From Halpernia frigidisoli (GTDB taxonomy: Bacteria; Bacteroidota; Bacteroidia; Flavobacteriales; Weeksellaceae), in the NCBI RefSeq assembly GCF_900113805.1, contig NZ_FOQT01000002.1, forward strand, positions 434,001 to 498,000: 64,000 nt of DNA. The letters run 5' to 3'. Below are positions 51,725 through 56,028 of the stretch, piece after piece. Under the pieces are notes generated by a model that searched no databases, was not told the origin of the DNA, and saw only the letters and a program-made list of their open reading frames with translations. The translations under genes and the position numbers were made by a program. Positions within the stretch are counted from its first letter, which is position 1, and every line of letters starts with the position of its first letter.

Positions 51725-51756
51725 TAAATGCCGCATTTCCTGCGGCATTTTTTTAT
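51725..51756. terminator. Shared bidirectional terminator of HU and pdxH
   Basis: AAATGCCGCA/TGCGGCATTT stem with A and T runs on both sides. The last bases of the pdxH gene (stop at 51753) lie inside it, so it can end both converging genes. Confidence 0.9.
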
Positions 51757-52397
51757 GGTGCTAAACGGGAAATATCCCAGTTTTCTTCTGACATTTTCTT
51801 GTACACAATCCTATCGTGCAAACGATTTGGGCGACCTTGCCAAAATTCTATCTCGTAAGGTTTTGCGATAAAACCGCCCCAATTTACTGGACGATCTATA
51901 TCTTTTCCTTCAAATTCTTTCTCTAAATCTTCTAATCTATTTTCTAAAAAATCACGGTTCGGGATTTCTGAACTTTGTGGAGAAACTACTGCGCCTAACT
52001 GACTTCCACGTGGACGGGAATGAAAATAATTTTCTGAATTTTCTTCAGATACTTTTGCAATATTTGCTTTAATGGAAATCTGACGCTCTAAACTTGGCCA
52101 AAAAAAATGAAGGCAAATCTTACCGGTTTCAGCAATTGCTTTTCCTTTTTGGCTATTGTAATTGGTGTAAAAAACAAAGCCACTTTCATCGTATTCTTTC
52201 AGCAAAACCACGCGCGTTCGTGGGCAACCGTCTTCATCAACTGTTGAAATTGACATAGCATTGGGCTCTGAAATTTCGGGCGAATTTTCTGCATCTTTAA
52301 ACCAGATTTTAAATTGTTCTAAAGGTGAACTTTTAATTTCTGATTCTAAAAGTTCTGCTTTTTCGTAACTTTTTCTTTTGTCATGCAGGTTTTCCAT
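51753..52397 (-). CDS. pdxH: Pyridoxamine 5'-phosphate oxidase
   Basis: 214 aa. FMN-dependent enzyme making pyridoxal phosphate. Motifs include AMSISTVDEDGCPRTRVVLL, FVFYTNYNSQKGKAI, FHSRPRGSQLGAVVSPQS and the C-terminal EFWQGRPNRLHDRIVY ending in RLAP, the family C-terminus. Two nearby proteins (the class IV aminotransferase homologue and others) would be PLP-linked, but they are not cotranscribed with it. It diverges from yqgE with a 22-nt gap. Confidence 0.97.
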   Translation of the reverse strand: MENLHDKRKSYEKAELLESEIKSSPLEQFKIWFKDAENSPEISEPNAMSISTVDEDGCPRTRVVLLKEYDESGFVFYTNYNSQKGKAIAETGKICLHFFWPSLERQISIKANIAKVSEENSENYFHSRPRGSQLGAVVSPQSSEIPNRDFLENRLEDLEKEFEGKDIDRPVNWGGFIAKPYEIEFWQGRPNRLHDRIVYKKMSEENWDISRLAP

Positions 52398-52408
52398 AGA
52401 AAATTTAT

Positions 52409-52416
52409 TAATTTTG
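52409..52416 (+). promoter_or_regulatory. Promoter -7 element 3 nt before the yqgE ATG
   Basis: TAATTTTG, then AAT, then ATG (52420). No clear -33 TTG at 19-22 nt, so this is only a partial match. Confidence 0.4.
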
Positions 52417-52419
52417 AAT

Positions 52420-52968
52420 ATGAATTATTCTTGCAAAGGTAAAATTTTAATTTCCACACCCGATATTTCCGGTGACATATTTTCACGATCTGTTGTTTTA
52501 GTTGTAGAACATAATGATAACGGCGCTTTTGGATTGATTTTAAATAAAAAAAACGATCAGGCTTCGCAAAAGTTACTTCATTTATTTGGCTTTCCTGTCG
52601 ATGTTTATGATGGCGGACCTGTGGAAAATTTTAAAACATTTTTTATTGTAAATGGATTGAAGGTTTCTGAAATTTCAGTTGAGATCAATGAAAATTACCA
52701 TTTAACTGAAGATCAGGATTCGGTTATTGAAGCGCTTTCTTCGGGAAAGTTATTACAGGAAAATGTGAAAATATTTAGCGGATATTCCGGTTGGGCTGCT
52801 TTACAGTTGGAGACAGAACTTAAAGCAAAAATGTGGACGATTGTAGAAGTTTATAACTTGGATTACACTTCGCCAAATGATCAAAATCTTTGGAAAAATA
52901 TCATGCAAAATCTTGGTGGTGAATATTTGCTTTGGGCAAACGCGCCGGAAGATGTGAGCATGAATTAA
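52420..52968 (+). CDS. yqgE: YqgE/AlgH family protein
   Basis: 182 aa from ATG 52420. The conserved parts are KGKILISTPDISGDIFSRSV and the NDNGAFGLILNK turn, FGGPV-like VYDGGPVENF, and FSGYSGWAALQLETEL. A regulator-like fold of unproven biochemistry, called AlgH for a link to alginate in Pseudomonas. The frame is open upstream to 52378, but the start at 52420 keeps the family N-terminus and fits the nearby box. Confidence 0.92.
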   Translation: MNYSCKGKILISTPDISGDIFSRSVVLVVEHNDNGAFGLILNKKNDQASQKLLHLFGFPVDVYDGGPVENFKTFFIVNGLKVSEISVEINENYHLTEDQDSVIEALSSGKLLQENVKIFSGYSGWAALQLETELKAKMWTIVEVYNLDYTSPNDQNLWKNIMQNLGGEYLLWANAPEDVSMN

Positions 52969-53123
52969 TTTAACAAAACTTTATTATTCTCTTAAATAAT
53001 TTTTAAGATTGGTCTTCCGTTTTAAAGATACTAAAACAAATATTCAGAATTTATTTCGAAAATATTTAACTCATAAAACTCGGTAAAAAACTATTAAACT
53101 GGTTGTTTCCCGGGTTTGTCAAT

Positions 53124-53909
53124 TTAAACCAAGCTTAATTTCCAGTTGTTGAGCAATTCTGAAAACCTTTTATTTTCAAAATTTCTATTTCGGATTTTGT
53201 CAACAGAAAAAATTCCTTTTGCTTCCGAAATTATTAAAATTTCTTCAGATTTTTGAGATTCGAAAGCCATCATTTCTACCTCTTCAATTTTTAAAGTATT
53301 GCTTTTATGCAAATAGGTGACAAATGCTTCCATCAAAGGCGAAATATAAGCGCCTTCAGTTTGCTTCGGAATTTTAACAGAATTTTCAGAAAGAAATAAT
53401 AAATTTCCAAAAATACTTCTTGCGATTCTCTTTTGCGGATTAAGAAAAATAACATCGTCTAAATCATTTTCTTTCGCATAAATTTCGCCATAAATATTTT
53501 CCGGTGAATTTGTATAAATATTGCTAAATAAATTATTATTAACGTTTATTTCTTTAATTAAATCTATCTCAATATTTTTTTCAATATTTAAAATATCCTG
53601 TTTGGCTATAAATTCAAAATAATGAGAAACACCAGATTTTGCTAAATTTTCATTGTCAGAATTCCGATAAACCATCATTCTAATAATTCCTTCCTGAGAA
53701 TCATTATCAATAAAATCATATTGAAAAATATTTTGAAAATATTCTAAAGTATAATCTGCCGGAATATTCATCCGCATTTTTCGCATGGAAGACATTAAGA
53801 AAAAATAGCATTCTTCCTCTAAAAAAAGCGCGCCATTTCTCACATAAAAAGACACCCAAACCGCATCACCAAATAAAAAGGCTCTGTTTTGCAAGTCAGA
53901 AATACTCAT
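53124..53909 (-). CDS. Class IV aminotransferase homologue lacking the PLP lysine
   Basis: 261 aa. The fold is that of branched-chain aminotransferase/aminodeoxychorismate lyase proteins: AFLFGDAVWVSFYVRNGALF, the GIIRMMVYR strand and DDVIFLN. Where family members read LKTxNK, this one reads NIYTNSPEN: the Schiff-base Lys aligns with Tyr132. The E-x-SNGN motif is replaced by ARSIFGN (Ala163). It therefore is probably a non-catalytic or altered protein. Lies next to the START-like gene on the same strand, 60 nt apart. Confidence 0.75.
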   Translation of the reverse strand: MSISDLQNRAFLFGDAVWVSFYVRNGALFLEEECYFFLMSSMRKMRMNIPADYTLEYFQNIFQYDFIDNDSQEGIIRMMVYRNSDNENLAKSGVSHYFEFIAKQDILNIEKNIEIDLIKEINVNNNLFSNIYTNSPENIYGEIYAKENDLDDVIFLNPQKRIARSIFGNLLFLSENSVKIPKQTEGAYISPLMEAFVTYLHKSNTLKIEEVEMMAFESQKSEEILIISEAKGIFSVDKIRNRNFENKRFSELLNNWKLSLV

Positions 53910-53929
53910 TAAAAATAATTTAAAATTGA

Positions 53930-53965
53930 TATAAAAAAAGAAAGTGATAAAAAATTACCACTTTT
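53930..53965 (-). terminator. Terminator between the START-like and aminotransferase-like genes
   Basis: Minus strand AAGTGGTAA/TTATCACTT stem with a T run of seven, 5 nt past the START-like stop. The aminotransferase-like gene then needs read-through or its own promoter. Confidence 0.7.
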
Positions 53966-53969
53966 AAAC

Positions 53970-54356
53970 TTATGAAGCGCCTAATTTCAGGCGAAGATTT
54001 TCAATTAGATTTTCCCAATATAATTTATTTTCTTCCCGATCGTCTTCTTCACAAAAATCTGTAATATTTAAAGATAAATCATCTGTGATTTCGTCTATAG
54101 TAATAACCAATTCAAAGTAATATTTTGTTCCTTCATCTTCTTCCCAACGAAAACGTACGAAACTCTCTGGTTTATAACGTATTAGAGTGGCCCTTTCTTC
54201 GCCACCACCTTCCCAGGTGAAATAAAAATCGTCTCCTCTTTCGTCTACTTCATCTGCGAACCATTCAGAAAGCCCTTCCGCACTCGCCATATATTCATAC
54301 AAAATCTCTGAAAGGCAGTGCATTGTATATTCATATTGCACTTTTACTTTGGTCAT
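53970..54356 (-). CDS. START-like (AHSA1/SRPBCC) domain protein
   Basis: 128 aa from ATG 54356 (MTKVKVQYEYTMHCLSEILY). Very acidic. LYEYMASAEGLSEWFADEVD and YFTWEGGGEERATLIRYKP fit the START-like domain family of Bacteroidota. It probably binds a small hydrophobic ligand; the function is unknown. The family is widespread and often next to a class IV aminotransferase gene, as here. Confidence 0.85.
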   Translation of the reverse strand: MTKVKVQYEYTMHCLSEILYEYMASAEGLSEWFADEVDERGDDFYFTWEGGGEERATLIRYKPESFVRFRWEEDEGTKYYFELVITIDEITDDLSLNITDFCEEDDREENKLYWENLIENLRLKLGAS

Positions 54357-54479
54357 ACTCGTCCTATTAATTGCCCGCAATATATAAATTAAATTTAGAT
54401 TTAAAAAAAAATTGCCTAAAATTCAAAGTATTTTTTAGTGAGATTTCGCAGGTTTTAAAAAAGTGATTTTGAAAATGAT

Positions 54480-55019
54480 TTATGACTTATCTAAAAAGTG
54501 ATTTTTAAAAATAAGTTCTTCTTTTTTTCCCTTTAATTGAAATTTTTTGAATAAAAGATTTCGCGCTAATATTCTGCTAAATGCTTCTTTATCAATCATT
54601 TTCCAATAAGAATCTTTGTGAATTTCTTTTGGTTTTCGAATTTCAAAAAACTCAGTTTCCCAGGAATCTGGATTGTGATAAAACTCTATAATGCCGCAGT
54701 GCAAAGGAATATTTTCAATATCGACCATTCCCATTGGCAGTAAAAAACTAAAATTATTACAAACATAATCGCCACAACTGATTTTATCGTGCTTTAGAAA
54801 TTTCTCACCCGTTTTTTCATTGGTGTAAGATTTCTTAAAATCATTTTTAAAATCTGCTTTTGATAATTTTATTTCAATTTCATGACTAAAACCTTCTTTG
54901 TCAATTATTAAAATATCGGCTTCCCAATCCGTGTGAAAGTGATTTGATAAAATTAAATGATGTTCAAAATCACATTTTTGAGAAATGTAAGCGTGTGTTA
55001 ATTCTTCTACTTTGATCAT
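54480..55019 (-). CDS. PD-(D/E)XK nuclease-like protein of unknown role
   Basis: 179 aa. I do not recognise the family, but DWEADILIIDKEGFSHEIEI followed by KLSKADF has the pattern of a PD-(D/E)xK core: Asp35 on a strand, then Glu49-x-Lys51, with His46 near. It resembles the MmcB-like group of repair nucleases, which is a guess. The second half (CGDYVCNNFSFLLPMGM, HCGIIEFYHNP) is Cys- and aromatic-rich. Follows the LuxE-like gene by 4 nt, last in a tight operon. Confidence 0.6.
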   Translation of the reverse strand: MIKVEELTHAYISQKCDFEHHLILSNHFHTDWEADILIIDKEGFSHEIEIKLSKADFKNDFKKSYTNEKTGEKFLKHDKISCGDYVCNNFSFLLPMGMVDIENIPLHCGIIEFYHNPDSWETEFFEIRKPKEIHKDSYWKMIDKEAFSRILARNLLFKKFQLKGKKEELIFKNHFLDKS

Positions 55020-55023
55020 TTTT

Positions 55024-56028
55024 TTAACTAACTAATAAACTACAACCACGAATATCTGAATGGTCAATTCTTCCCAAAACCTGAAATTGAAGATTATTTT
55101 CCGCTTTATTTTCAATTAATTTTCCCAAATCCTGTGTCGCAATAAAACTACAAGTATGAAGATTTGCCAGATCAATAATGTTTAAAGCACCGGTTTTTCC
55201 TGCAATTTCATAAGAAAATGGATCTTCTACATTTCTTATCAAAATCCGCATCCAATTTGGGCAATTATAAGTGTTATTTCCCAAAGAATAGGCCTGAGAA
55301 AGCAATTCTGTCATAGAATATTCGGAATAAATTTTTTCTGTTTTAAAACCATTTTGCAGGATTTTCAATAATTCATCTTTGGTGATTTCTTGTTTTCTTC
55401 CTTTCATTCCGCCAGTTTCAATGATTGTTAATTGCTTTGAAACTTCAATTTTCTGTTCGGAACTTTCTATAAAATCAAGAAAATCTAATAACGCAAACGA
55501 AACGCCGAATAAAATCACTTTCTTGTTTTCATTAGACAATTTTTTAAGCAAATCAAACAATTCCTGGTGGTTGTAAAGAAAATAGCCGTTTTCTGGTTTT
55601 CCTGATTTTTTCATCAGAAAATCAACCATATATATTAAGGACGAATGTTCGTTTTCTGAATAGTTTGGTAAAAGTCCTAGAAAAATGTAATCTTCAGTTT
55701 TTCCAATAAATTGCTCGAAACTTTTAACAATACTTTCTTGATATAAATTTTCATCAGCAATATAATTTTTAGAGCGCGTTTGCAAAGTCGTGCCAGAACT
55801 TTGAAAATAAAGATCCGCAGTTTTATTTTTATCTAAAATATGGTGATTTTTAAACATTTCAATTGGCAGAAATGGAATTTTTTCAACCTCATCAACTGTT
55901 GAAATATCAATGTTTAAAAAATCTACGAATTTTTGGTAAACTTCTACGTTTTCATATTGATAACGGAAAATTTCCAGGCATTTTTGCTGGAATTCTGATT
56001 CGGTTTCTATGTTAAAAATATCTTTCAA
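55024..56028 (-). CDS. LuxE-like acyl-protein synthetase/acyltransferase
   Basis: 334 aa, of the LuxE/PaaK-like adenylate-forming superfamily. FQSSGTTLQTRSKNYI is the phosphate-binding loop, and the middle IETGGMKGRKQEITKDEL and the end VLGRIDHSDIRGCSLLV fit LuxE domains. LuxE activates fatty acids as acyl-AMP and hands them on as an acyl-thioester. No other lux genes exist nearby, so it is not for light; loading of an acyl chain for lipids or surface sugars is likelier. It overlaps the gene before it by 4 nt. Confidence 0.85.
   Translation of the reverse strand: MKDIFNIETESEFQQKCLEIFRYQYENVEVYQKFVDFLNIDISTVDEVEKIPFLPIEMFKNHHILDKNKTADLYFQSSGTTLQTRSKNYIADENLYQESIVKSFEQFIGKTEDYIFLGLLPNYSENEHSSLIYMVDFLMKKSGKPENGYFLYNHQELFDLLKKLSNENKKVILFGVSFALLDFLDFIESSEQKIEVSKQLTIIETGGMKGRKQEITKDELLKILQNGFKTEKIYSEYSMTELLSQAYSLGNNTYNCPNWMRILIRNVEDPFSYEIAGKTGALNIIDLANLHTCSFIATQDLGKLIENKAENNLQFQVLGRIDHSDIRGCSLLVS

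Follow-up and report, generated by a model that had tools for sequence, protein, structure and literature searches.

What keeps a gene intact when its protein belongs to a PLP-dependent enzyme class and lacks the lysine on which that class depends? The question is raised by a 261-aa protein of Halpernia frigidisoli, whose reading frame (53124..53909, minus strand) starts with ATG and is intact. Positions are those of the window, the whole stretch of 64,000 nucleotides that was analyzed, from a genome of 3.02 Mb that is 99.5% complete. The original prediction had described an intact gene for a class IV aminotransferase homologue without its Schiff-base lysine, probably kept for another use. The family referred to below is the GTDB family of the window genome (the Halpernia/Chryseobacterium group).

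Predicted Fold of the Protein

The Pfam model PF01063 (Aminotran_4) matched the 261-aa protein with an E value of 4.3e-10; its score of 40.3 bits exceeds the cut-off, which is 28.5. The AlphaFold2 model, computed from an alignment of 59 members of the protein's own family, reached a pLDDT of 95.2 and a pTM of 0.91. When this model was compared with the PDB by VIA-align, it proved to have PLP fold type IV: the 50 entries listed (Z 24.0–26.8) were all of aminotransferase or PabC type. The top match was 3lul, a putative PabC of Legionella (Z 26.8, rmsd 2.4 Å, 250 residues), followed by branched-chain aminotransferases, the PabC proteins of Salmonella and Escherichia coli, and D-amino-acid aminotransferases, and Foldseek was concordant. 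The assignment to class IV made in the original prediction was thus sound, and the protein is predicted to retain the class IV fold. This fold is shared over its full length with PabC (TIGR03461; PDB 3lul, 1et0, and 2y4r), and on the NCBIfam equivalog model TIGR03461 itself the window protein scored 45.4 bits, below the cut-off of 176.85. The nearest protein among the 80 named loci that were kept belongs to Halpernia humi (NCBI family Weeksellaceae; 84% identity).

Loss of the PLP Site

We found that the column of the catalytic PLP lysine, as placed by the alignment of the family with its orthologues, is occupied in the window protein by Tyr132 (codon 53514..53516, minus strand), just as had been predicted. 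We read a sample of the matches: 90 of the 115 in the family, plus 40 orthologues belonging to other families of the order and 20 drawn from the class. Lysine stood in this column in 40 of 40 and 20 of 20 of these orthologues, respectively, and was absent from 87 of the 90 family members, whose residues were R (42), N (18), H (8), Y (7), L (6), Q (3), K (3), A (1), S (1), and E (1). Among the 80 named loci the column read R in 71, H in 5, Y in 2, K in 1, and N in 1. The counts in this column exclude L033, which duplicates L001; L031 and L032 had no match there, and L094–L123, second copies of family loci, were unused. The segment ARSIFGN, which had been read as an altered E-x-SNGN motif, corresponds to A163-R164-S-I-F-G-N169, and its Arg164 (codon 53418..53420, minus strand) lies where 38 of the 40 orthologues of the order have Glu. 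Arginine occupies this position in 87 of the 90 family rows and in all 80 named loci. The original prediction was correct about the lysine and the motif and understated the damage, which is family-wide: Phe37 stands in place of the PLP-phosphate Arg, the Glu at N1 is gone, the phosphate-loop Gly has become Ser, and the phosphate site has lost its Thr-Asn pair as well.

According to a structural study of PabC (PMC3174152), residues F27, T29, H43, R46, K140, G199, and R202 of P. aeruginosa PabC are active-site residues identical in four PabC enzymes, the phosphate is held by Arg46 and main-chain amides, and any change of Gly199 would clash with the phosphate. The window protein differs from PabC in having none of these seven strictly conserved residues; the number kept was 0 in 66 of the 90 family rows, 1 in 6, 2 in 17, and 3 in 1, and 0 in 79 of the 80 named loci. 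The Lys-bearing orthologues retain the PabC pattern, with 5–7 residues kept in the 40 from the order and 6–7 in the 20 from the class. We take Glu173 of PabC to be the residue at N1 of PLP. The PabC residues map well onto these orthologues because the spacing is that of PabC (33 from Lys to Glu, 26 from Glu to Gly, and 3 from Gly to Arg), with a difference of one between Arg and Lys.

Could the protein still be a PLP enzyme that binds PLP non-covalently or on another lysine? Two lysines of the family are near-invariant, K160 (87/90) and K119 (82/90), and pdxH, the gene of an enzyme that makes PLP, adjoins the gene in many loci. However, of the 40 orthologues that retain the catalytic lysine, 26 also have lysine at position 119 and 23 at position 160, and therefore both were rejected as substitutes for the catalytic residue. 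The original prediction had named Lys146 as a possible alternative at the catalytic site. That position is lysine in just 30 of the 90 family members, so a relocation of the catalytic lysine to it was rejected as well. Against a surviving PLP enzyme also stands the loss of every contact listed above, from the phosphate Arg to the Thr-Asn pair, and we regard this explanation as barely tenable. Lysine was seen at column 132 in family members L039, L045, L051, and L237, perhaps through drift from Arg to Lys. In the first three the phosphate Arg and the Glu are still replaced, and the three Lys-bearing rows among the 90 carry Phe and Arg, respectively, at these two positions.

For relatives of PLP enzymes presumed to be non-enzymatic, Mycobacterium tuberculosis offers a precedent: PMC12910592 describes PLP-fold proteins of this species for which no enzymic function is presumed. 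The class IV fold of the window protein is shared by a Variovorax paradoxus protein classed as aminotransferase-like (PDB 7z79; mutant N174K, 9j32), which, going by no more than the title given to the mutant entry, may be naturally Lys-less. Our literature search found no paper on this Variovorax protein or on the 261-aa protein, and none that dealt with class IV proteins lacking the lysine or with a displacement of PabC in this group.

Distribution and Selection

The gene was present in 115 of the 120 family genomes (111 of the 112 good ones), and no internal stop occurred among the matches listed. In a tree of 130 rows, all 90 family rows fell on one side of a single branch, with a support of 100/99 and in 100% of 200 bootstrap trees; further changes of the Lys state are required for the three rows with K. 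Because the change is common to the family, which forms one side of one branch, it is not a matter of chance. Two relatives, the family genome G068 (locus L343) and G078 (L345), lack the gene at this locus: START_2 and yqgE are only about 70–80 bases apart there, and no trace of the gene is left; therefore, some relatives manage without it.

Ratios of dN to dS were obtained for 130 pairs by the Nei–Gojobori method with our own script, the first 25 alignment columns being left out and pairs with saturated dS being given no ratio. Where dS was unsaturated, dN/dS of the gene was ~0.03–0.12, and between the window and its nearest relative it was 0.09, compared with 0.085 for yqgE and 0.11 for pdxH. 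The gene is under purifying selection, as the check proposed in the original prediction was meant to reveal. The loss of catalytic residues from a gene that remains under purifying selection is one mark of a pseudoenzyme, and both were found here. Since the lysine is lost and the intact gene is selected, the protein probably has a role without PLP, which agrees with the suggestion that it was kept for another use.

The Lys column now ranks 190 of 247 by entropy and is thus among the more variable ones. A163, Arg164, and Ser190 (ranks 20, 24, and 29) belong to the least variable positions, with residues unlike those of the orthologues; together with F58 and L192 they make up five family-specific near-invariant positions. 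We infer that the former cofactor pocket was rebuilt around Arg164 and Ser190; new residues would hardly have become fixed through decay alone. A decaying relic heading for loss would account for the variable Lys column and for the two genomes in which the gene is missing. Nevertheless, it is hard to reconcile with the retention of the gene across the family, with a dN/dS similar to those of yqgE and pdxH, and with the new near-invariant residues. On dN/dS and distribution we rejected decay, which is very improbable.

PabB and PabC Gene Content

To what enzyme did the Lys-bearing ancestor correspond? Class IV content was obtained by a PF01063 search of 25 genomes (10 family genomes with the gene, the family genome G068 without it, and 14 genomes of other families). 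In each of the 10 family genomes that carry the gene, the search also found a BCAT-length protein and one with an open frame of 195–237 aa, and in three of them one more; G068 likewise has both BCAT-length and 195–237-aa class IV proteins. The short frame, called compact PabC here, stands beside a compact PabB (NF005486) in the same genome and is presumed to be an aminodeoxychorismate lyase. It shares the class IV domain with the window protein, from which it differs in being much shorter, in lying at another locus, and in keeping the catalytic lysine, which is invariant in 11 of 11 rows. In 11 of the 14 genomes from other families, the class IV proteins are limited to the Lys-bearing orthologue and those of BCAT length (two in one of the 11), and the remaining 3 have an extra class IV protein of 304–337 aa.

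The PabB content was divided in the same way. A long PabB (291–330 bits on the pabB model, frames of 424–473 aa) was found in all 14 genomes of other families and in none of the 11 family genomes, and these 11 have a compact PabB instead (158–187 bits, 319–364 aa). A third match to the pabB model in most genomes of both groups (204–240 bits, usually 466–501 aa) is presumably TrpE. The compact PabB of the window genome scores 424 bits on NF005486 against a cut-off of 275, and compact PabB overlaps compact PabC in 10 of the 11 family loci fetched. Among 246 genomes of the order, compact PabC was found in 39 of 39 family genomes (236–300 bits) and at high score in 0 of 207 others, of which 13 gave weak matches (26–34 bits); the list of genomes without a match begins with other families.

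The class gave a wider view of this exclusion. Of its 197 genomes, 17 have compact PabC (E up to 1e-10), 2 of them from the family and 15 from eight other families. Against the profile of the Lys-bearing orthologues (E up to 1e-20), 11 of these 15 gave no match and 4 gave a weak one (6e-25 to 2e-31). Among the 180 class genomes without compact PabC, 152 match that profile and 28 show neither gene. One family, f36, has both conditions, with three genomes carrying the Lys-bearing gene and one carrying compact PabC. Outside the Halpernia/Chryseobacterium family, therefore, the two types of PabC are largely alternatives, which is the main evidence that the old gene was a PabC; that family is the exception, carrying both genes, the old one without its site. 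The coincidence of the two events within the family is not open to a statistical test, since the swap there is one event.

Alternatively, the Lys-bearing ancestor might have been some class IV enzyme other than PabC, for example a D-amino-acid or branched-chain transaminase, and its coincidence with the compact PabB–PabC pair would then be an accident. When five Lys-bearing orthologues were compared with NCBIfam, TIGR03461 was the best match for four and a BCAT subfamily model for one, all below cut-off (134.6–149.4 bits on TIGR03461, against 176.85), and the closest PDB chains by profile were archaeal BCATs. The compact-PabC genomes outside the family also often have another class IV protein of about 300 aa (281–342 aa in 8 of 15; the other 7 have compact PabC alone, with or without a BCAT-length protein), and the 4 weak profile matches point in the same direction. 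On the other hand, 11 of 14 genomes, all with PabB, have no class IV gene but the Lys-bearing one and those of BCAT-length proteins, and outside the family no genome searched combines a strong match to it with compact PabC. We therefore consider a different ancestor improbable. The original prediction had recognized the enzyme's loss of its lysine and missed this probable PabC ancestry, with a successor elsewhere in the genome.

Proposed Fate of the Old PabC

Based on these distributions, we hypothesized that the gene is a displaced pabC turned into a PLP-free pseudoenzyme throughout the family and retained under selection, and this reading is likely. The ancestral gene would have encoded the original PabC of Flavobacteriales, a 4-amino-4-deoxychorismate lyase. 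In the family's ancestor, the compact PabB–PabC pair, found in the family today, would have taken over the synthesis of para-aminobenzoate. Afterwards the PLP site of the old PabC (catalytic Lys, phosphate Arg, motif Glu, and phosphate-loop Gly) would have been lost, likely because the compact pair was present in the family instead, with the fold kept according to the model and purifying selection continuing. Today the protein, a probable pseudo-PabC, would most likely be PLP-free and non-catalytic, a binding protein whose rebuilt pocket is suggested by the new near-invariance of Arg164 and Ser190. The pocket might, for instance, bind another ligand, perhaps an anionic compound of the chorismate or folate pathway, and the protein might act across the family as a PLP-free small-molecule sensor that signals to START_2 or another partner. 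We regard such a sensor as rather unlikely.

The gene seems to offer a clean natural example in which a compact relative displaces a biosynthetic enzyme that is nevertheless retained, throughout a bacterial family, for another role. Its Lys-bearing orthologues, its dead forms, and its natural absences at one locus provide comparison sets for a pseudoenzyme gaining a role. The family proteins pass the Pfam class IV cut-off, and a metabolic model should treat them neither as transaminases nor as PabC.

START_2 and the Neighboring Genes

Directly upstream of the Lys-less gene lies the gene of a START_2 protein (PF19569; 53970..54380, minus strand). On the other side are the convergent yqgE (YqgE/AlgH, DUF179; 52378..52968, plus strand), which stands beside the orthologue in many other families, and pdxH (pyridoxamine 5'-phosphate oxidase; 51753..52397, minus strand), identified by Pfam and NCBIfam. 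Both yqgE and pdxH adjoin the gene in many members of the family and of the Lys-bearing group alike.

By adjacency, START_2, to which the original prediction had suggested a link as regulator or partner, is the most plausible single partner, a proposal that we hold only tentatively. The Lys-less protein would then be its dedicated partner or regulator, the genes staying together because the proteins form a complex in which START_2 binds a hydrophobic ligand. START_2 was found upstream in 58 of the 59 family loci of at least 6.9 kb, even though yqgE was found in 37 and pdxH in 40 of them, and 18 of the longer family loci have START_2 with neither. A START_2 frame is present in all 80 named loci, and its dN is low in the family. 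However, the pairing predates the loss of the lysine, for it was also found in 9 of the 36 longer loci from outside the family. START_2 is present in all 14 of the searched compact-PabC genomes outside the family, it stays where the Lys-less gene is missing, and in one family member (L047, G003) it is located elsewhere. START_2 as an obligate partner is thus weakened by its presence in genomes without the gene, including G068 and G078, and by a hairpin between the two genes. No relatives of the START protein were found in viral contigs.

This hairpin, terminator-like by folding and followed by a T-run, lies at 53933..53964 on the minus strand (−9.1 kcal/mol, z −5.7). Downstream of START_2, a hairpin with a T-run was seen in 150 of 169 family pairs and in 8 of 10 other pairs, compared with 197 of 845 mononucleotide shuffles; these counts give no probability because the rows are related. 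When four stretches were folded, only L010, which begins inside the hairpin, was without a stable stem. A consensus terminator scan of 52900–54600, which needs at least three G-C pairs, listed nothing; the stem of the hairpin has two. The hairpin sits immediately ahead of the gene's start codon; its stem varies among genera, but a hairpin recurs, also beside Lys-bearing orthologues. Such recurrence hints at attenuation or at a separate START_2 transcript.

Farther upstream, a 179-aa reading frame (54480–55019, minus strand) gave no Pfam or NCBIfam match up to an E value of 1; it also occurs beside the locus in a genome of the same genus. It is followed by a homologue of LuxE-like acyl-protein synthetases (55024–56028, minus strand), which scores above the Pfam cut-off and far below the NCBIfam cut-off for LuxE.
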